Shown: positions 10,349 to 22,422 of the stretch, in pieces
Layout of the letters: each line of letters begins with the position of its first letter
How positions within the stretch are numbered: the stretch's first letter is position 1
Assembly: GCA_003152485.1 (NCBI GenBank)
Contig: PMAE01000078.1
Location: 144,601-187,844 of the forward strand
Origin: Gemmatimonadota bacterium
GTDB lineage: Bacteria; Gemmatimonadota; Gemmatimonadetes; Gemmatimonadales; Gemmatimonadaceae
DNA length: 43,244 bases
Reading direction: 5' to 3'
Translations under genes and position numbers: made by a program
The notes under the pieces: model-generated
The model's database searches: none
What the model was told of the DNA's origin: nothing
What the model saw: only the letters and a program-made list of their open reading frames with translations

Positions 10349-11575
10349 ATGTTGCTATACCCGCGATTCGTTAAACCGCTGCTAGAGCAAGACTTAACGT
10401 TGTATCCGGCCGTAGCGGTTATGGGAGCTCGACAGGTTGGAAAGAGCACCCTCTGCCGTGAAATAGCAGATCAACGCGGGATGGCGTACCGCACTCTCGA
10501 CGATCGCGATGTCCGCGATCAGGCGCTGGCGGATCCTGAAGGCCTGCTCGACGACCTGGGACAAGAGGGGGCTGTCATTGACGAGGTACAACGCGCACCG
10601 AACCTATTGCTGGCGCTAAAGTCGACTGTGGATCGCGAGCAAAAACTCGGGCGTTATCTGCTAAGTGGCTCAAATCAGCCGAAGGTCGCCCATGCGCTCG
10701 CTGATTCGCTGCTGGGTCGCACCGGCTACAGGACTCTCCGGCCGCTGACCCTAGGCGAACAACGATATGACGAAAAGCATCGCGGGTGGGAATTCCTATT
10801 TGGTCCGGATGACAAGATCGTATTGGACTCACTTATCGAGCGCGCGACGACAAGCGGCGAGCTCGATTGGCACGAGATTGCAAGAACTGGGGGCTTCCCA
10901 CGCGCCCTGGCGGCACCACCGAATCAGCGCTTACGAATTCTGGACGACTACATCCAAACCTTTGCGCACCGAGACATTCGAGAAGTGGTGGGTATCGAAT
11001 CGGTGGATCGCTTCGAGACATTCCTACGCCTAATCGCGACGCGGACGGCGCAGGAACTGAATGCCTCTAACCTCTCATCCGACCTCGGAACACCCGTGGC
11101 CACCATTCGACGCTGGGTGGACGCGCTCGTGCGCAGCTACCTGGTAGAGGTAATACCTGCGTACCACCGGAACGCAGGCAGGCGCGTGATCAAAGCCCCC
11201 AAGATCTATATGGTCGATACCGCCCTGGCACTGGCCGCCTCCCGCGCGCAGGAGCCCACAGGCGGCTTTTACCTCGAAACAGCGGTAGCCGGCGACTTGT
11301 GTGTTTGGCGAGATGAGGCGCCCGAGCAACGCGCGTTGCACCACTGGCGCGTCCCCAACGGGCCGGAAGTGGACTTTGTGCTCGGGCAGGGCAAATTGCT
11401 GTTGCCAGTCGAGATAAAAACGTCCGGGAGCGTCGACTCGAGCGACGCCCATCACCTCCGTAGGTTCCGTACGGACAATTCAAACGCGCCGCGAGCCGTA
11501 CTTCTTAGCTGCGATCCCTACATCAGGGTGCTCACGGACGGGATCATCGCCGCACCTTGGTGGGCGGTTATCTAG
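10349..11575 (+). CDS. AAA ATPase with DUF4143 domain
   Basis: The 408-residue protein is a typical AAA_14-DUF4143 ATPase. The Walker A motif GARQVGKST lies at residues 26-34 and Walker B AVIDEVQRAPNLL near 75. The sensor region YLLSGSNQ is near 103. The family segment YRTLRPLTLGEQRY follows, and the DUF4143 half includes YIQTFAHRDIREVVGI. Near the C-terminus EVDFVLGQGKLLLPVEIKTS has the D-(E)xK arrangement seen in this family, which resembles a nuclease core. Function is unknown for most members; they are common in accessory regions. The short leader after the putative -10 box suggests an almost leaderless message. It is divergent from the unknown gene at 9740. Confidence 0.9.
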   Translation: MLLYPRFVKPLLEQDLTLYPAVAVMGARQVGKSTLCREIADQRGMAYRTLDDRDVRDQALADPEGLLDDLGQEGAVIDEVQRAPNLLLALKSTVDREQKLGRYLLSGSNQPKVAHALADSLLGRTGYRTLRPLTLGEQRYDEKHRGWEFLFGPDDKIVLDSLIERATTSGELDWHEIARTGGFPRALAAPPNQRLRILDDYIQTFAHRDIREVVGIESVDRFETFLRLIATRTAQELNASNLSSDLGTPVATIRRWVDALVRSYLVEVIPAYHRNAGRRVIKAPKIYMVDTALALAASRAQEPTGGFYLETAVAGDLCVWRDEAPEQRALHHWRVPNGPEVDFVLGQGKLLLPVEIKTSGSVDSSDAHHLRRFRTDNSNAPRAVLLSCDPYIRVLTDGIIAAPWWAVI

Positions 11576-13314: not shown

Positions 13315-15699
13315 GTGCTCACGCTCCGTGCCGCCGCCGCGATGTTGACCGCGGACGACCCTGAGGCGTTGCCGCGTCTGGCAGCTGCGTGCGGGTGCGA
13401 GGGGACGCCGCGCGTGCTCGATGCGGCAGATCGCGAGCGGTTGGGACTAGGGGTGTTGGGAGGCGGTGCCGGAAGCCCTGGGGTCCGGGTCGCCCGTGGC
13501 CCGGGGAGCTTGCGGGCGCTGTTACTCGAGGTCGAGCCGGGGACGGCGTGCGGGCCCTTTCGCGAGGCGTTGCCTCGGTTGGCGGCGCGCATGGCGCGAC
13601 GCACGCCGCATCTGGCGTGGCTCTGCATTGCCGCGAGCCGCGCCGCGGGGCGGCCACTGGCACTCGTCTCGTGGTCGGCGGATCGGGTGCCGCCGCACGT
13701 GGTCGCGCTCGCGGTGGACCGCGACGACATCGTAGACAGCGACGCGGAGACGTTGTGTGCGCTGGCTGCCGCGGCCGGCCCGGATGACACGCTCACGCAC
13801 GCCCGATGGCTCGACGTCCTCGGCCGCCAGTCGTTGACGCGCCGGTTCTATCGCGCGCTCGACCGGGGTGTGGACCGGTTGGCGCAGACCATGGCCGTGC
13901 CCGGGGTGACGGCACGAGTATCGGGGTCGAGTCGTCGCGCGCTCGCCCTGTTGTCGGCGTCACGCCTGTTGTTTCTCTCGTTCCTCGAAGCCAAAGGGTG
14001 GCTGGACGGAGACCGCGGGTTTCTCGGACGCACGTTCACCGACTGTGTCGGCGGCCCGGGACGATACCATGCGCGCGTGTTACGGCCCCTCTTCTTTGGC
14101 ACGTTGAACACGCCGGTCCGCCGTCGGGCGCCGCGGGCGCAGGCGTTTGGTCGCATTCCATTCTTGAACGGCGGGCTGTTCGCGCCAACGTCGCTCGAAC
14201 GGCAGGTCGCCGGCGCGGAGTTCTCCGACGAGGCGTTGGGGGCGTTGTTCGGGGAGGTGCTCGGCCGCTACCGATTCACGGCGCGGGAAGATTGCCGAAC
14301 ATGGTCGGAAGCGGCGGTTGATCCGGAGATGCTTGGCAAGGCGTTCGAGTCGCTCATGGAGCCGCGCGAGCGCCGAGTGACGGGAGCGTTTTACACGCCG
14401 CAGGCGCTCGTTGAGCGGATCGCGCGGGAGGCGCTCACGCGAGCGCTGACGTCTCCCGACGTGCCGGCCGCCTACCCCGAAGCGCTCATCGCAGGCGCGT
14501 CCGACGGGGCGCCGGACGTGGCACTCGACCTGGCGGCGCAACACGCGATCCGAGGGCGGCTCGCGCGGATACGGGTGCTGGATCCGGCGTGCGGATCAGG
14601 TGCGTTTCTCGTGTACACGCTGGAGATGATGGCCGCGATGGCCGCGCACGTCGGTGACGCGCGGTCGGTGAGTGCCCGACGCCGTACGGTGCTGACACGC
14701 TCGATCTTCGGTGTGGATGTCAATCCCACAGCCGTGTGGCTGTGCGAGCTGCGGTTGTGGTTGTCGGTGGTGATCGAGACCGCGGAGAGCGATCCGTGGC
14801 CGGTGCCCCCCCTGCCCAACCTGGACCACAACGTCCGCGTCGGCGACGCGTTGGGCGGCGGGGCATTCGGCGACGGGCAAGGGGGGCCGTCGGGACCACG
14901 GGCGGCCGGTCGGGCCGGCGCCCGGCTGACGAGCCTGCGCGAGCGATATGCTCGGTCATGTGGTGCGCGCAAGCATGGGGCGTTGCGAGCGCTCGACCGG
15001 GCGGAACGGGCACGAGCCATCGAGGCGGTCGAGCGGGAGCTCGCACGCATCGTCACGGCCAGGCGGGACGCAGTGATGATGGCGCGGGGGCGCGATTTGT
15101 TCGGTGCGCCGGCGGCGAGCGGTGCGGCGGATCGTGCGCGCCGAGCAGATCTTCGCGTACGAGCGCGAGTGACGCGCGCACGGTTGCGAGCGCTGCGGGA
15201 TGGGGCGGCGTTGCCGTTCGTATTCGCCGGGCAGTTCGCCGACGTCGAGGCGACGGGCGGGTTCGACATCGTGCTGGGGAATCCGCCGTGGGTGCGGCCG
15301 CATGCGGTGCCGATCGCGGACCGGCAGCGCCTTCGACGCGACTTCGCGGTTAGCCGTCACGCGGCGTGGCTTCCAGGTGCTGCCGCCGGTCGAGGCGGGC
15401 CGGGGTTCGGTGCACAGGTGGATCTCGCCGCGCTCTTCGTCGAGCGAGCGGTCTCGCTGACGTGCGATGACGGCATCGTGGCACTCCTGCTGCCCGCGAA
15501 ACTCTGGAAGTGCCTGGCCGGTGGCGGCGTACGGCGGCTCATCGCGGAGCGGACGACAATCCATGCGATCGAGGATTGGTCAGCCGCACCCTCGTCATTT
15601 GATGCGGCGGTCTACCCATCCCTGCTGGTGGCACGGCGGCGCGCTGCCGTCCGCGACACCGACGGGTCGGATGCGCGCGGCGGCGCGGTGTCCGGATGA
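13315..15699 (+). CDS. Adenine-N6 DNA methyltransferase, catalytic half (Eco57I/DrmMI-like)
   Basis: The 794-residue protein is a gamma-class N6-adenine methyltransferase. GAFYTPQ near residue 357 precedes SAM motif I VLDPACGSGAF (Asp423). Motif II is FGVDVNPTAVWLCELRLWLS and the catalytic motif is NPPW at 656-659. A helical insertion of about 130 residues separates motifs III and IV. After GIVALLLPAKLWK it ends soon after VYPSLLVARR, without the usual specificity region. The first 340 residues resemble the N-terminal part of Eco57I-like and DrmMI-like enzymes, but I see no PD-(D/E)xK nuclease. GTG 13315 is used; ATG 13342 is also possible. The next gene, coupled by ATGA, supplies the missing C-terminus. 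Confidence 0.88.
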   Translation: MLTLRAAAAMLTADDPEALPRLAAACGCEGTPRVLDAADRERLGLGVLGGGAGSPGVRVARGPGSLRALLLEVEPGTACGPFREALPRLAARMARRTPHLAWLCIAASRAAGRPLALVSWSADRVPPHVVALAVDRDDIVDSDAETLCALAAAAGPDDTLTHARWLDVLGRQSLTRRFYRALDRGVDRLAQTMAVPGVTARVSGSSRRALALLSASRLLFLSFLEAKGWLDGDRGFLGRTFTDCVGGPGRYHARVLRPLFFGTLNTPVRRRAPRAQAFGRIPFLNGGLFAPTSLERQVAGAEFSDEALGALFGEVLGRYRFTAREDCRTWSEAAVDPEMLGKAFESLMEPRERRVTGAFYTPQALVERIAREALTRALTSPDVPAAYPEALIAGASDGAPDVALDLAAQHAIRGRLARIRVLDPACGSGAFLVYTLEMMAAMAAHVGDARSVSARRRTVLTRSIFGVDVNPTAVWLCELRLWLSVVIETAESDPWPVPPLPNLDHNVRVGDALGGGAFGDGQGGPSGPRAAGRAGARLTSLRERYARSCGARKHGALRALDRAERARAIEAVERELARIVTARRDAVMMARGRDLFGAPAASGAADRARRADLRVRARVTRARLRALRDGAALPFVFAGQFADVEATGGFDIVLGNPPWVRPHAVPIADRQRLRRDFAVSRHAAWLPGAAAGRGGPGFGAQVDLAALFVERAVSLTCDDGIVALLLPAKLWKCLAGGGVRRLIAERTTIHAIEDWSAAPSSFDAAVYPSLLVARRRAAVRDTDGSDARGGAVSG

Positions 15700-16775
15700 C
15701 CGATCTGCCCGACGACCGCGGGACGATCGCCGCCGCGGTGCACGCGAGCGTCGGGGCCAGGCGGTGGACAATGCCGGTCGGAGCGCTCCCGCTCGACGGG
15801 TCGCCGGGAAGTCCATGGGTATTAGTGCCGCCCGTGGTACGGCGGGCCTTCGACGCCGTCTGCGCGGCCGGCGCGCCCCTCGCGGAAAGCGCGTTCGGGT
15901 CCCCCGTGCTGGGTGTGAAATGCGGATGCAACGACGCGTTCCTCGTGACGCTCGATGTCGGTGACTCGGCAGAGGGAGAACTGGCATCAGTGCGAACCGC
16001 GGACCGACGCGCGCCGACACGTCACGGCGTCGTGGAGCGGCGACTGTTGCGGCCCATCGTGCGGGGAGAGACGCTGCGACGGTGGTCGCTCCCGCGCCAG
16101 AGCGGGTCGCCGCAACTCGCGCGATCGCCAGCGAGCGACGCGCGGGGTCAGGTCGTTGGGGCCCCCCGTCGGACTCGTCGGACCGTCCAGGAATGGATGG
16201 TCTGGACGCACGAGGAGTCGGACGCCGGGTGCGCAAAGCCATTGGACGTGCTGCCCGCAGCGGCGGCGCGGTGGTTGGCGCCGTGGCGCCATCGGCTGGC
16301 CGCGCGGAGTGACACGCGGGGCCGAGCACCGTGGTGGGCGTTGTTTCGTACCGACGGCGCGGACACGAGGCAGCCGCGAGTGGTGTGGTCTGACTTCGGT
16401 CGAGCGGCACGGGCCGCAGTGGTCGGGCCGGCCGATCGGACGGTACCGCTCAACAGTTGTTATGCGGTGCGCGCACCGTCGGAGATCGATGCCCATGCAC
16501 TGAGCGCGATCATCAACAGTACGGTCGCGACAGCGTGGCTCAACATCGTGGCCGAGCCCGCGCGCGGGGGATTCCATCGGTATCTGGGCTGGACCGTCGG
16601 ACTCCTACCACTCCCAAAGGAGTGGGCGCGCGCACGCGAGGTGCTCGGCCCAGTCGGGGCCCGCGCGGCGGCCGGGGACGCACCGGCCGACGATGCACTG
16701 ACGGCGTACGTCGCGGAGGCGTACGGAGTCTCCGTCGACGCACTGGGACCGCTCCTGATGTGGCCCGAGGGATGA
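15696..16775 (+). CDS. Specificity (target recognition) half of the split DNA methyltransferase
   Basis: This 359-residue protein resembles the C-terminal part of Eco57I-type methylases, the TaqI-like specificity domain. GSPWVLVPP is followed by SPVLGVKCGCNDAFLV, then the family-typical LLRPIVRGETLRRW. A conserved tail has VPLNSCYAVRAPS, LSAIINSTVATAWLN and GLLPLPKEW. In most relatives this region is fused to the catalytic domain. Here it starts by ATGA overlap with the methylase gene and ends by ATGA overlap with the SNF2 gene. It should bind DNA and choose the methylated site. A single frameshift in an originally fused gene is the main alternative, though the good start codon argues for a real split. 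Confidence 0.8.
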   Translation: MTDLPDDRGTIAAAVHASVGARRWTMPVGALPLDGSPGSPWVLVPPVVRRAFDAVCAAGAPLAESAFGSPVLGVKCGCNDAFLVTLDVGDSAEGELASVRTADRRAPTRHGVVERRLLRPIVRGETLRRWSLPRQSGSPQLARSPASDARGQVVGAPRRTRRTVQEWMVWTHEESDAGCAKPLDVLPAAAARWLAPWRHRLAARSDTRGRAPWWALFRTDGADTRQPRVVWSDFGRAARAAVVGPADRTVPLNSCYAVRAPSEIDAHALSAIINSTVATAWLNIVAEPARGGFHRYLGWTVGLLPLPKEWARAREVLGPVGARAAAGDAPADDALTAYVAEAYGVSVDALGPLLMWPEG

Positions 16776-19123
16776 CGCTGCTGGTGGTGGACGCCGCGAC
16801 CGCGCGGGCGGCAGTCGCGGAATGTTGGCTCGAGTCCTCGGATGATGCGGGCGTGCAACTGGGGTCGGTATCGCTTCGGCCGCATCAGATGGTCGCTGTG
16901 CGGGAGATCCGGGCGCTGCTCGACGAGTTCGGCGGCGCATTGCTGGCGGACGAGATGGGATTAGGCAAGACGTTCGTGGCGCTGGCACTCGCCAGTGAGG
17001 CACAGCGACCGTTGGTCGTGGCGCCCGCGGGACTACGCGGGATGTGGCAGCAGGCCGCGGGTCGCGCGGACGTGCGAGTCACGATGTACTCGACCGAGGC
17101 GCTCAGTCGCGGGGACGCCCCACCCACCACCGATGGTGGCTGGGATCTCATCATCGTTGATGAGGCGCATCATTTCCGAAATCCCACGACCCGCCGGTAC
17201 CGGGCACTCGGGCGGCTGTCCGGAGGGGTCCGACTCGTGCTGCTCTCCGCGACGCCGATCCACAACCAGGTGGGCGACGTGGCGGCGATCCTGGAGTTGT
17301 TTCTCGGCTCACGCGTGAAATCGCTGTCGGATGCCGAACGCGCGCGGTGCATCGTGCGGCGGAAATCGGGCATGCTCACCACCACGGAGTCGGCCGTGGG
17401 GACCGAGTCGCGGGTGCCGATCGTGGAGGGACCGCATCGCCTGACGCTGGCCGACGACCGCGAGACGTTGGACGCGATCCTGGCGTTGCCGGACGCGGTC
17501 CCACCACGAGACGGTGGGAATGCCGGAGCGCTGGTCAGCTTCGCGTTGGTTCGACAATGGGCGTCGAGCGCCGGGGCGTTGCGAGCCGCGCTCCGCCGGC
17601 GTCTCGCCCGCGCGGTGGCGATGGTGTCCGCGCTCGAGTGCGGCCGCCATCCATCATATCGAGACTTACGAGCGTGGTGCATCGGCGAGGGTGCGGTGCA
17701 GCTCGCGTTTCCGGAGCTGTTGGTCCCGCCATCGAGCGAGGCGGGCCCACTGCTCGAGGCGGTCCGCACCCACGAGGCGGGGGTGCGTGCGCTTCTCGAC
17801 CGGCTCGTCGCCGCACGAGATCCCGACGTCGAACGCGCTGACCAGATACGGGGTGTCATGCGGACGCACCCCGGGGTCAAGGTCATTGCATTCTCGGCGT
17901 TCGAGGACACCGTGCGCACACTCTACCGGCACCTCGCGGCGCAAGAGCGGGTGTGCGTGTTGAGCGCAGGCGGAGCCGTGATCGCCAGCGGACGAACGAG
18001 CCGTGCCGCGGTGATGGCGCAATTCGCGCCGGCGGGGTCGCGGGTTGGCGGACCCACCGCGAGCGCCGCCGAGCGCATCGATCTGTTGCTCACTACCGAC
18101 CTATTGAGTGAGGGGGTGAATCTCCAGGAGGCGGCGGTGGTCGTGCACCTCGACCTGCCGTGGACGCCGGCGCGACTGGAGCAGCGGGTGGGGCGGGTCG
18201 CGAGACTCGGCTCGGTGCACGAACGCGTGCATGTCTATGCGCTTGCTCCGCCGGTGTCGGCCGATACGTTGCTCGGAGTCGAGCGCCGGTTGCGGGCGAA
18301 GCTTGACGCGGCAGGGCGCGCGATCGGCGTACTGGGTTCGATCCTGCCAATCGGGGCCGCACCGGATATGACGGCACCTCAGACGAGACCGGGACCGCCG
18401 GAGCAGATCGCCACCACGCGGGCCGCGGTGCGACGATGGCGCCCGAGTGACGCTGGGTCTGTGTGCGTGGCGCGCGAATCCGCCGGTACCGTCTGTGCCG
18501 CAGTCCGCGCGGCCGCGTCAGGGTGGTTGGCAGCGTGCGTGCGTGACGGGCGATCGATGCTGCTCGCGTGTTCGGGTAGCGTGGTGACAGACACGCCCGC
18601 CGCGGTCGCGCGTGCGGTCTCGCTCGCGGAAGGTCGCCCGGTACCCATGGACGAGTCGAGGTGCCGTGCTGCGCTCATCGCGATCCACGAGTGGTGCGGA
18701 CGGCGGCGAGCGGCGGACGACGCGGGGTTGCACGTGGCCGCCGACACCGGAGCACGGCGTCGCGTACTCGCTCGCATCGCCGCGATCGCACGGCAGGCGC
18801 CGCCACATCTCCGTCCGCGCCTCGCGACGTTGATCCGGCGCGCCCGATACGCCGCCGTCACGCGCTGTGGCGCGGGTGCAGAGTGGGTACTGGGCGAGTT
18901 GGCGAACACGCAGATGGCGGACCGGGCATGGCTCGTCGCCGTCGCAGCGTTCGGAGACAGCTATGGGCTGCGGGGCGCAGGGGAAACGCGGATTGCGCGC
19001 GACACCGAATCCATAGAAGGTCGCAGCGACACAACCGGTACTACCGTGACCGCAGTGATTCTGTTTCAGCGGGACGCTGGGAAGCGTTGCCTAGCGGCGG
19101 CCGACGGCCGAGTTAGTTTGTGA
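16772..19123 (+). CDS. SNF2-family helicase-like ATPase (DrmD-like)
   Basis: The 783-residue protein has both SNF2 lobes. LRPHQMVAV and Walker A ADEMGLGKT lie at residues 35-67, DEAH at 130-133, and SATPIHNQ at 159-166. In lobe 2 are VIAFSAFEDTVRTLY near 371, TTDLLSEGVNLQEA at 441-454 and QRVGRVARLG at 471-480. SNF2 proteins translocate on double-stranded DNA using ATP and do not unwind it like true helicases. About 280 C-terminal residues match no domain I recognise, and no nuclease motif is visible. The open frame extends upstream to 16457 inside the previous gene, but the coupled ATG at 16772 is the sensible start. With the methylase genes it resembles the drmMI-drmD pair of DISARM. Confidence 0.88.
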   Translation: MTLLVVDAATARAAVAECWLESSDDAGVQLGSVSLRPHQMVAVREIRALLDEFGGALLADEMGLGKTFVALALASEAQRPLVVAPAGLRGMWQQAAGRADVRVTMYSTEALSRGDAPPTTDGGWDLIIVDEAHHFRNPTTRRYRALGRLSGGVRLVLLSATPIHNQVGDVAAILELFLGSRVKSLSDAERARCIVRRKSGMLTTTESAVGTESRVPIVEGPHRLTLADDRETLDAILALPDAVPPRDGGNAGALVSFALVRQWASSAGALRAALRRRLARAVAMVSALECGRHPSYRDLRAWCIGEGAVQLAFPELLVPPSSEAGPLLEAVRTHEAGVRALLDRLVAARDPDVERADQIRGVMRTHPGVKVIAFSAFEDTVRTLYRHLAAQERVCVLSAGGAVIASGRTSRAAVMAQFAPAGSRVGGPTASAAERIDLLLTTDLLSEGVNLQEAAVVVHLDLPWTPARLEQRVGRVARLGSVHERVHVYALAPPVSADTLLGVERRLRAKLDAAGRAIGVLGSILPIGAAPDMTAPQTRPGPPEQIATTRAAVRRWRPSDAGSVCVARESAGTVCAAVRAAASGWLAACVRDGRSMLLACSGSVVTDTPAAVARAVSLAEGRPVPMDESRCRAALIAIHEWCGRRRAADDAGLHVAADTGARRRVLARIAAIARQAPPHLRPRLATLIRRARYAAVTRCGAGAEWVLGELANTQMADRAWLVAVAAFGDSYGLRGAGETRIARDTESIEGRSDTTGTTVTAVILFQRDAGKRCLAAADGRVSL

Positions 19124-19803
19124 GCGCCATGTCTGACACACCTCACCGCGCCATCCTGTTCGACCTCGATGGCACGCTCGTCGATACGATCGCCCTCCTG
19201 CTCGAATCGGTGCGTCACGCGTTCGAGGGACGGCCGGACGGCGCACCGACTACCGCGGACTGGATCGCGGGGATCGGGACGCCGCTCGCCGATCAACTCC
19301 GACCATACTCGGCCGACGAAGCAGACCTCCAATCGCTGACCGAGCGGTATCGACGGTATCAGCGCGCCAACCACGATCGGCTCACGTACTGCTACCCCGA
19401 CGTCGTCGCCACCGTGCGCCAATTGCACGAACGCGGATACCCCATGGCCGTGGTCACCTCGAAGGCCAACGACATCGCGCTCCGCACCGTGACCTATGTC
19501 GGACTGGCGCAGTACTTCCCGGTGATCGTCGGGGTCGAATCGACGAGCCGCCACAAGCCGGACCCCGAGCCGGTCCAGTTCGCGCTCGAGTCGCTGGGCG
19601 CTCGGCCCTCCGACGCCGTGTTTGTCGGCGATTCGCCCCACGACGTGCGCTCCGGCAACGCCGCCGGGGTCACGACGATCGGCGCGTTGTGGGGGCCCTT
19701 CTCCCGCGCGCAACTCGAAGCGGCGCACCCGTCCCGCCTGCTCGAGCGGATCGGCGGGTTGCCCGCGCTGTTGGACAGCTTACCCGTGCCGGCCGCCGCG
19801 TAG
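19120..19803 (+). CDS. HAD-superfamily phosphatase (Gph/PpaX-like)
   Basis: The 227-residue protein has all HAD motifs. The nucleophile motif is ILFDLDGTLVDT near residue 12, motif II is VVTSKAND near 110, the motif III Lys lies in RHKPDPEPV, and the motif IV acids are in VFVGDSPHDV. The alpha-helical cap after the first motif marks subclass I, the phosphoglycolate phosphatase / pyrophosphatase group. GTG 19120 overlaps the SNF2 stop; ATG 19129 is an equally good start. Being last in the operon, it is either a member of the methylase-SNF2 system or a housekeeping gene reading from the same message. The substrate is unknown. Confidence 0.88.
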   Translation: MSAMSDTPHRAILFDLDGTLVDTIALLLESVRHAFEGRPDGAPTTADWIAGIGTPLADQLRPYSADEADLQSLTERYRRYQRANHDRLTYCYPDVVATVRQLHERGYPMAVVTSKANDIALRTVTYVGLAQYFPVIVGVESTSRHKPDPEPVQFALESLGARPSDAVFVGDSPHDVRSGNAAGVTTIGALWGPFSRAQLEAAHPSRLLERIGGLPALLDSLPVPAAA

Positions 19804-19935: not shown

Positions 19936-20565
19936 ATGGCCGTGGCGCCGCCCGACGCTGAATCACGATCCACTGAGCACTCGAAGGCGACGGACAGCGT
20001 GACCGGGGGCGGAGACGCCGCGGGCCTCGCGGCCGATGTCGCGCTCGCGGCCGCCGGTGACCGTTCGGCCTTCGAACGGGTGTACCGGGCGCATTGCGAT
20101 CGGGTGTACTCGGTCTGCGTTCGCATGACCGCGGATGCGGCGCAGGCAGAGGAGCTGACACAGGACACGTTCGTGCGAGCGTGGGCAAAGATGAGCCTCT
20201 TCCGTGGGGAGAGCGCTTTCGCGACGTGGCTCCATCGGCTGGCGGTCAACGTGGTGTTGAACGCGCACAAGGGCGAGGGACGCCGACGACGGTTGATGGA
20301 CACCACGTCGGAGGGCGACCACGAGGAGGCGGGGGGCGGATTGGCGGCCGTGGCGGCGCCGACGCACTTCGCGGCGGGCGAATGGCTGGACATCGAGGCG
20401 GCGATCGCGGCACTCCCGCCAGGGGCGAGGCGCGTGTTCGTGCTCCACGACGTCGAAGGCTATCGGCACGAGGAGATCGGAACGATGCTGGGAATCACAT
20501 CGGGTGGGAGCAAGGCGCAGTTGCACCGGGCGCGGATGCTCATACGGGAGACTCTGAGTCAATGA
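19936..20565 (+). CDS. ECF-type RNA polymerase sigma factor
   Basis: The 209-residue protein has sigma region 2 from about residue 45 (FERVYRAHCDRVYSVCVRMT, then AEELTQDTFVRAWAKM) and region 4 near the C-terminus. Region 4 runs from LPPGARRVFVLHDVEGYRHEEI to a helix-turn-helix GTMLGITSGGSKAQLHRAR. There is no region 1 or 3, as expected of ECF sigma factors. It overlaps the anti-sigma gene by 4 bases (ATGA), the standard arrangement for a sigma/anti-sigma pair. The first 35 residues are low-complexity, so a start slightly downstream is possible. Confidence 0.93.
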   Translation: MAVAPPDAESRSTEHSKATDSVTGGGDAAGLAADVALAAAGDRSAFERVYRAHCDRVYSVCVRMTADAAQAEELTQDTFVRAWAKMSLFRGESAFATWLHRLAVNVVLNAHKGEGRRRRLMDTTSEGDHEEAGGGLAAVAAPTHFAAGEWLDIEAAIAALPPGARRVFVLHDVEGYRHEEIGTMLGITSGGSKAQLHRARMLIRETLSQ

Positions 20566-21386
20566 CGACACGTCGTGAGGATGCCGGAACCGAGACCGCC
20601 GACGGATGCGCGGCCTTCGCGGCCGCACTGCCCGACTACCTCGACGGCGCGTTGACCGGCGAGGCGGACGGGTCAGCCCGCGCGCACATCGTGTCGTGCG
20701 ACTCGTGCCGGACGCTCGTCCGGGATCTGGAGCGCATCCGCGTGCGAGCCGCTGCGCTCCCCGTGCAGCGGCCGTCCACGGATCTGTGGGCGGGGATCGA
20801 GGCCCGGATCCAGGCGCCGCTGCGATTGGAGGAACACCCGGAGGGCCGGCGCGCGCCGGCCGCGCGGGGGGTGGGTCGCCGGTGGCTCACGCAGCCGTGG
20901 GCGAGGGCCGCGGCCCTGGTCATCGCGACCGCGGGCGTGACTATCGTGGCGACACGCCAGTGGACGGCAGTACCGGTCGTCGGCCCGACGCAGGCGCCGG
21001 TGCGGGTGGCGACCGGCCAGCCCGTCGTCCCGACTCCCAAGCCGCCGCTGGTGACGCCGGTGATCGGCCAGCCGGGATCGGTCGTCACCTCGGTCAAGAA
21101 CGATGGGCGGTCCGCACGCCCCGCCGCGCCGACCTCCGAGTTCATCTACGACCAGCAGATCACGACGCTCCACCGGATCGTGGAATCGCGCCGCCGGCAG
21201 ATGAATCCCAAGACGGTGGCCATCATCGAGAAGAATCTGCGCGTGATCGACGCGGCGATCGCGGAGAGCAAAGCGGCGCTGGCGAAGGACCCCGCCAATG
21301 GATTCCTCGCCCAACAGTTGGACGCGACGCTCAGCACGAAGCTCGACCTGCTGCGGACTGTCGCCATGCTCCCCAGTCGGACCTGA
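20562..21386 (+). CDS. Zinc-finger anti-sigma factor, membrane anchored
   Basis: This 274-residue protein begins with a ZAS-type anti-sigma domain. The zinc motif Hx3Cx2C is visible in AHIVSCDSC near residue 50, preceded by LPDYLDGAL. A single membrane helix follows at about residues 112-130 (AAALVIATAGVTIVA). The outer part has a Pro/Val/Thr-rich stretch and then a helical region with QQITTLHRIVESRRRQMN and EKNLRVIDAAIAESK, likely a coiled coil. It should hold the cognate ECF sigma factor at the membrane until an envelope signal releases it. The start is fixed by the ATGA overlap with the sigma gene. Confidence 0.9.
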   Translation: MTTRREDAGTETADGCAAFAAALPDYLDGALTGEADGSARAHIVSCDSCRTLVRDLERIRVRAAALPVQRPSTDLWAGIEARIQAPLRLEEHPEGRRAPAARGVGRRWLTQPWARAAALVIATAGVTIVATRQWTAVPVVGPTQAPVRVATGQPVVPTPKPPLVTPVIGQPGSVVTSVKNDGRSARPAAPTSEFIYDQQITTLHRIVESRRRQMNPKTVAIIEKNLRVIDAAIAESKAALAKDPANGFLAQQLDATLSTKLDLLRTVAMLPSRT

Positions 21387-21414
21387 TCGCTCACTATTCT
21401 GGACGGACTACACG

Positions 21415-22422
21415 ATGCCGCTTCCTAAGATGTTCGCCCTCCTGGCACTGGTCCTGGTCGCGATCGCGCCACGCGCGCAGGCGCAACACAGTCAACAAGT
21501 CCAGGCCCCAGAGCGCGGCGAGCGCCACGAACGCCGTGAGCACGACGTGGACGACGACGTGGTCGAGCCGGATGGCGACAACGGCGTGAAGATCGATACC
21601 ACGATCCCCTTCGCGACGTCTGGCGGCGTGGTCGATCTCACGCTGGTGTCGGGCGAGATCACCGTCAGCGGCTGGAACCGCGGCGAGGCGCACATCCATG
21701 TATCGAGCGACGACGTCCCGGTACGCTTCGAGCATGGAACGGACCGGGTCCTACTCGATACGCGCTTCGGCCATCATTCGGAGCGCGACGAGGGTGACGT
21801 GGAGTATGTGCTCACCGTGCCCGTCGGGACGCGCGTCATCATGCACAGCATGTCGGGCGAGCTGCGATCGCAAGGGACCCACGGCGAGATCGACGCCCGC
21901 TCGGTGAGTGGCGATGTCGAGGTCGATGACGTCGTGCGGACCGCGACGCTGGAGAGCGTCTCGGGCAATGTGATGGCGCGAAACATTCAGGGCGATCTGC
22001 ACGCCCGCACAGTGAGCGGCGATATCGATGCCGATCGAGTCGCCGGCGACGTGACGGTCGCATCGGTCAGCGGGCACGGCGCCGTGACAAACGCGAAATC
22101 GCGCTCCCTGCGCATGGAGACGGTGAGTGGTGATCTCACCTACCGCGGCACGTTCGACCCGACCGGCACGTACGACCTGCACGCCCACTCAGGGAACGTG
22201 CAGCTCGAGATCCCCGCCGACGCCGGGGCGACAATCTCGCTCGATACCTTCAGTGGCGAATTCCGGACCGATTTTCCGATGACCGTCCAGACGGGCGGTG
22301 ACGAGCCCGGCCTCACGCGTCACCATATGGACGCCACGCTGGGCAAGGGTGGTGCGCACATCACGGTGACGACGTTCAGTGGGGATGTGGAGCTCCGAAA
22401 GCTGTCGGCGGCCACGCGGTAG
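21415..22422 (+). CDS. DUF4097 beta-helix envelope protein
   Basis: The 335-residue protein has a cleavable signal peptide (MFALLALVLVAIAPRAQAQ) and then an acidic linker. The rest is made of repeating beta strands of the DUF4097 type. The repeats are of about 19-20 residues, each marked by a VSG core: ARSVSGDVEVD, LESVSGNVMAR, ARTVSGDIDAD, VASVSGHGAV and METVSGDLTY. This predicts a right-handed beta-helix that is exported. It follows the sigma/anti-sigma pair after 28 bases, so it is probably co-transcribed and a target of the same stress response. The ligand is unknown. A clear terminator hairpin lies downstream at 22509. Confidence 0.85.
   Translation: MPLPKMFALLALVLVAIAPRAQAQHSQQVQAPERGERHERREHDVDDDVVEPDGDNGVKIDTTIPFATSGGVVDLTLVSGEITVSGWNRGEAHIHVSSDDVPVRFEHGTDRVLLDTRFGHHSERDEGDVEYVLTVPVGTRVIMHSMSGELRSQGTHGEIDARSVSGDVEVDDVVRTATLESVSGNVMARNIQGDLHARTVSGDIDADRVAGDVTVASVSGHGAVTNAKSRSLRMETVSGDLTYRGTFDPTGTYDLHAHSGNVQLEIPADAGATISLDTFSGEFRTDFPMTVQTGGDEPGLTRHHMDATLGKGGAHITVTTFSGDVELRKLSAATR

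Follow-up and report, generated by a model that had tools for sequence, protein, structure and literature searches.

A nuclease-free adenine methylase and SNF2 ATPase gene pair, vertically inherited in Gemmatimonadales, as a candidate core epigenetic system

Organization of the methylase-SNF2 operon

The window, the whole stretch of 43,244 nucleotides that was analyzed, comes from a 4.27-Mb draft genome of a Gemmatimonadota bacterium. Among named records, the closest to it is a Gemmatimonadetes MAG, whose SNF2 protein is 73% identical. Reading of its open reading frames identified three plus-strand genes encoding proteins of 794, 359, and 783 amino acids (aa), with consecutive genes overlapping by 4 bases. 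A third 4-base overlap, GTGA at position 19120, joins the stop codon of the SNF2 gene to the start codon of a HAD-family phosphatase gene. The features of the region are as follows:

13315..15699, + strand: Eco57I-type N6-adenine DNA methyltransferase, catalytic half (794 aa; Pfam Eco57I, E value 5e-16)
15696..15699, + strand: ATGA stop/start overlap of the methylase half and the specificity half (read from the sequence; junction GGATGACC)
15696..16775, + strand: target-recognition (specificity) half of the same methyltransferase (359 aa; weak TaqI_C match)
16772..16775, + strand: ATGA overlap of the specificity half and the SNF2 gene (read from the sequence; junction GGATGACG)
16772..19123, + strand: SNF2 ATPase/translocase (783 aa with the ATG at 16772; Pfam)
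19120..19803, + strand: HAD-family phosphatase (Pfam HAD_2, 1.5e-43; synteny)

The sequence-only reading had described an operon of an NPPW methylase with SAM motifs and an SNF2 ATPase joined by 4-base overlaps, and the open reading frames, junctions, Pfam matches, and conserved motifs all agree with that description. The 794-aa protein scored above the Pfam cutoff for Eco57I methylases, and its motif I (DPACGSG) and motif IV (NPPW) are invariant or nearly so across 40 orthologues; its N-terminal ∼150 aa, which are alpha/beta in the predicted structure, are poorly conserved. No second Eco57I methylase was found in the window's genome. The 783-aa protein scored above the Pfam cutoffs for SNF2-rel_dom (1.7e-15) and Helicase_C (4.2e-14); across 44 orthologues, its residues of Walker A, DE-H, and motif VI do not vary. 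Against the nearest relative, all three genes gave a pN/pS of ∼0.25 to 0.34, which reflects purifying selection and indicates that the operon is maintained. The methylase and SNF2 genes likewise overlap by 4 bases in many relatives of family f1.

The genes surrounding the pair, in the window or in the loci of relatives, encode a rhodanese, an LD-carboxypeptidase, a glycosyltransferase, the HAD phosphatase, ThiC, SufB/D, an extracytoplasmic function (ECF) sigma factor with a zinc-finger anti-sigma-like protein, and a DUF4097 protein. This housekeeping neighborhood is common to many f1 loci. In the window, the ECF sigma, anti-sigma-like, and DUF4097 genes form a cluster downstream of the pair (19936 to 22422), and the cluster is conserved beside the pair in many genera. 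The HAD phosphatase gene is linked in about half of the f1 loci, upstream or downstream; in other genera (L118, L130, and L131, for example) the homologous gene precedes that of the methylase, so that the link is kept and the side has changed. The phosphatase is probably a housekeeping passenger. Upstream in the window, at 10349 to 11575, lies a DUF4143/AAA_14 ATPase gene that is not common to the relatives' loci examined.

A methylase split within one genus

The separate specificity protein noted from the sequence is present in the window but is confined to its genus. The methylase and its recognition part form one open reading frame of ∼1,050 codons in all out-of-genus relatives in which the junction was read, and the two-frame arrangement occurs only in three genomes, each a different species, of the window's genus, where the overlap, at one shared linker, reads ATGA in two and GTGA in one. 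A frameshift or an assembly error is an unlikely cause, since three species share the stop/start overlap at that linker. The split is a genus-level gene fission and not a separate specificity subunit of an older kind.

The fold was examined in a single-chain orthologue (L022; model pLDDT, 88.9). Its closest structural match was CamA, with a target-normalized TM score of 0.74 to 0.79 at a sequence identity of ∼13%, followed by M.BseCI, MmeI, and BrxX.

Distribution and inheritance of the pair

We surveyed 149 relatives, mostly Gemmatimonadales, with RecA and the type I HsdR N terminus as controls. The methylase was found in 136 genomes and the SNF2 protein in 130, compared with 138 for RecA and 29 for HsdR; among the 114 good genomes, the corresponding counts were 106, 102, 112, and 24. 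The pair is single copy. Both genes were present in 130 of the 149 genomes, the methylase alone in 6, the SNF2 gene alone in none, and neither in 13, with assembly reasons accounting for some of the 6 and incompleteness affecting some of the 13. The two genes are lost together as well as retained together. The pair is carried by a genome assembled as a single contig of 4,636,964 bases (G023), and in another genome (G015) both genes are retained although they lie ∼12 kb apart. In a 7.5-Mb genome on 4 contigs (G018; locus L135), the SNF2 gene is gone while the methylase and the flanking genes are kept, and this genome together with the 13 that lack both genes indicates that the system is dispensable.

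The pair also occurs in two sister families of the same class, f4 and f9. In the methylase tree, families f1, f2, f3, f4, and f9 each form one clade (SH-aLRT support, 99 to 100), and the 5 label changes needed are the smallest number possible. The SNF2 tree requires 6 label changes, and across f1 to f3 the SNF2 distances correlate with the methylase distances (Mantel r, 0.91). The pair is a core, vertically inherited element whose trees follow the taxonomy. Recent horizontal spread is contradicted by both trees, the exceptions being a Myxococcota copy and a single unplaced MAG. The Myxococcota MAG carries a nuclease-free methylase-SNF2 pair (L042, 6588 to 12157) that falls beside Gemmatimonadales in the methylase tree, and this copy was probably acquired by horizontal transfer.

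Absence of a nuclease and its probable loss

Searches of the three proteins against nuclease families returned nothing except whole-chain type IIG models that aligned over the methylase part. The conserved acidic/Lys/His set expected of a nuclease is absent from the SNF2 C terminus and the methylase N terminus. At the position of the type IIG PD-(D/E)xK domain, residues 1 to 160 showed no conserved acidic/Lys set across 40 orthologues, and none of the matches listed was to a nuclease domain. The AlphaFold model of the SNF2 protein (pLDDT, 85.5) was nearest by Foldseek to the motors of Chd1, Ino80, ISW1, and RapA. Its C-terminal ∼250 residues are predicted to form a beta-meander with helices, contain no conserved catalytic residues, and gave no nuclease-specific structural match. 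No recognizable nuclease was found in the proteins or in the operon neighbors, and the earlier description of a nuclease-free methylase and SNF2 pair holds.

Homologous pairs in other phyla, including Poribacteria, Hydrogenedentota, and Planctomycetota, have an SNF2 protein with an N-terminal HKD domain (HAK...GSSNF; Pfam PLDc_2). Family f4 has a PLD-like domain, which is either encoded between the two genes by its own open reading frame of ∼185 aa or present as an N-terminal extension. It is homologous to the HKD domain (hhalign probability, 97%; E value, 7.5e-11) and has W-x-P-D in place of HxK. The small PLD-like proteins without HxK that are encoded between the methylase and SNF2 genes in f4 are the following:

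L166, 5066-5623
L168, 4232-4813
L170, 5778-6308

Those of L166 and L170 matched no Pfam family, and the f4 domain had no match among solved structures. In f9, the SNF2 N-terminal extension showed a weak match to the f4 domain (31%; E value, 5e-4) and none to the active PLD domain, and its kinship as a PLD remnant is uncertain. In f1 to f3, the SNF2 protein begins at the motor, with no N-terminal HKD or PLD domain.

The most economical reading of this series is that the nuclease probably decayed and was lost within this lineage rather than never having been present. One long-branch relative without the HKD domain (L032) means that this reading needs a second loss. The sequence-only reading had held that homologues always accompanied by drmABC or a nuclease would refute it. 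Outside the phylum this is partly the case, with the HKD domain on the SNF2 protein, which bears on the nature of the ancestor and does not refute the absence of a nuclease in the window pair.

Divergence of the recognition domain

The target-recognition domain (TRD) and the methylase core diverge together in the nuclease-free order, with a TRD/core divergence ratio of 1.03 (standard deviation, 0.07; 1,891 pairs), whereas the nuclease-bearing homologues gave a ratio of 1.64 (range, 0.92 to 2.32; 48 pairs); the contrast is clear, although the pairs are not independent and the 48 control pairs represent a small number of lineages, some with short TRD alignments (34 columns). Poribacteria pairs with a core identity of 76 to 85% had a TRD identity of 53 to 74%. 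No recognition-domain swap was seen in the nuclease-free order. A TRD that is not diversifying suggests a fixed target, and there is probably one conserved target across the order.

Comparison with known systems

We found no paper on Gemmatimonadota methylomes or on this methylase-SNF2 pair. Models of type IIG enzymes, DrmMI, DrmD, DpdE, and HKD-Snf2 gave partial matches only. For the SNF2 proteins from f9 and from the nuclease-bearing relatives, the top-scoring model was HKD+Snf2 (PADLOC C3a139). The window pair shares with HKD+Snf2 modules a homologous SNF2 motor adjacent to an Eco57I-type methylase that is single chain in those modules. The modules themselves have an intact N-terminal HKD domain, usually place the SNF2 gene before the methylase gene, and have a faster-diverging TRD, whereas in the window pair the gene order is reversed, the TRD diverges in step with the core, and a nuclease domain is missing. 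By descent, the pair is nonetheless nearest to these HKD-Snf2/Eco57I-methylase modules.

With type IIG enzymes such as MmeI, the pair shares the methylase fold and domain order; it differs in having a separate ATP-dependent motor and no detected N-terminal nuclease. The PglX models of BREX reached 24 to 41 bits against cutoffs of 400 to 900, and neither PglZ nor BrxC was recognized adjoining the operon. The type 2 BREX-related (BR) systems likewise combine an N6-methylase with an SNF2 helicase related to HKD-SNF2 effectors (PMC12839542). The defining gene of BR systems encodes a DUF499 ATPase, joined in type 2 by DUF3780, and their methylase belongs to another class, with DUF1156 (PMC12839542); none of DUF499, DUF3780, and DUF1156 was seen among the annotated neighbors of the window pair. 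By the tests made, the pair is neither DISARM nor BREX.

CamA, the top structural match, is likewise a methylase without a linked nuclease, and CamA of Clostridioides difficile is an orphan enzyme belonging to the core genome. It is conserved in one species, whereas the pair extends across an order, and we know of no SNF2 partner of CamA. The genes of the pair are near-universal, single copy, and vertically inherited, with no cognate nuclease, as in orphan core methyltransferases of the CamA/CcrM kind. CamA is reported to be an orphan methyltransferase with a role in promoting sporulation (PMC13395437).

Alternative explanations

The sequence-only reading had offered an orphan DISARM half, which would be DrmMI plus DrmD of class 1 with drmABC elsewhere in the genome. 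The likeness lies in the adenine methylase and SNF2 helicase, and the best partial matches include the DrmMI and DrmD models. However, the NCBIfam DrmD models score at about one-fifth of their cutoffs or less (108.4 bits against 610 and 93.4 against 950), and all DISARM models fall far below cutoff. No drmA, drmB, or drmC gene is linked to the operon, where the neighbors are housekeeping genes. The window's genome contains no MZB/DrmB-type gene, and such a gene occurs in 10 of the 149 relatives, never on the pair's contig. As noted above, the HKD+Snf2 model gave the highest scores for the SNF2 proteins from f9 and from the nuclease-bearing relatives. We reject this explanation, which the DrmD scores and the lack of an MZB/DrmB-type gene largely refute, and regard it as very improbable. 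Somewhat less remote, and still improbable, is a restriction system with its nuclease either supplied in trans, by a gene that is unlinked or unrecognized, or hidden in the methylase N terminus or the SNF2 C terminus. Both the alpha/beta N terminus and the post-motor region are divergent, and a degenerate REase-like domain occupies this C-terminal position, after the motor, in the related RapA-like helicases from BREX-related systems (PMC12839542). Against this, neither region has a conserved catalytic set, the methylase N terminus had no nuclease-domain match among the matches listed, the linked neighbors are housekeeping genes, and the TRD is not diversifying. A nuclease hidden in either terminus was rejected on the lack of a catalytic set and of a nuclease-specific structural match.

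Nuclease-free innate immunity is a possible but doubtful explanation. The methylase would mark self, and the SNF2 protein would block the replication or expression of unmarked DNA without cutting it, or pass that DNA to a housekeeping nuclease (RecBCD or AddAB, for example). Its relatives DrmD, BrxH, HmaA, DpdE, and HKD-Snf2 are defense helicases, and the SNF2 gene never occurs without the methylase, as restriction logic predicts. The SNF2 protein is also evolving faster than the methylase (SNF2 identity of 25 to 46% outside the genus; mean methylase core identity of 55% within f1), and this may be a sign of conflict instead of a housekeeping role. Yet a mark that is probably order-wide would not distinguish self from phages grown on related hosts, the recognition domain is not diversifying, and near-universal vertical retention in a housekeeping setting is unlike the patchy HsdR control. 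The minimal defense system proposed from the sequence is consequently not the best fit, given near-RecA universality, housekeeping neighbors, taxonomy-like trees, and a static TRD; the epigenetic system that had been offered beside it fits better on the same evidence.

A proposed domesticated epigenetic system

We favor the explanation, at slightly better than even odds (about 55%), that the pair is a domesticated, nuclease-free descendant of a restriction-like module of HKD-nuclease/SNF2 and Eco57I methylase that now serves as a vertically inherited core epigenetic system. It draws on gene content, single-copy retention, agreement of the trees, absence of a nuclease, and intact motifs under purifying selection, and also on the joint loss of the two genes and the co-divergence of target domain and core. 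Counting against it are the faster divergence of the SNF2 protein and the dispensability of the system, and we know of no role for an SNF2 partner in orphan methylation.

In such a system, the CamA/MmeI/BrxX fold and the non-diversifying TRD suggest that the methylase would place m6A genome-wide at one fixed and probably asymmetric target. The target sites of CamA, MmeI, and BrxX are asymmetric. Replication of an asymmetric site leaves one daughter wholly unmarked, and a clearing or scanning motor could therefore help maintenance. Translocation along double-stranded DNA is the most likely activity of the SNF2 protein, which would cooperate with the m6A mark, for example by removing proteins from the DNA and thereby allowing newly replicated sites to be methylated; alternatively, it may act where the mark is missing. 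More doubtfully still than the immunity explanation, we suggest that it could be a dedicated SNF2 remodeler for the core methylation of the order, a bacterial counterpart of DDM1/LSH in its partnership with DNA methyltransferases, stripping DNA-bound proteins so that a fixed m6A is maintained or read, and that it was born of a restriction system shedding its nuclease.

Restriction systems are the presumed ancestors of orphan methylases. If the domestication proposed here is correct, intermediate stages of such a descent would be visible, from relatives that carry the nuclease, through a sister family with a pseudo-nuclease, to an order that has none and whose TRD has stopped diversifying. Scans for defense genes can take core epigenetic genes of this kind for defense islands. 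A translocase retained across the order without a nuclease raises the question of what job an SNF2 motor may have in bacterial DNA methylation, a question that is testable in cultured Gemmatimonas.
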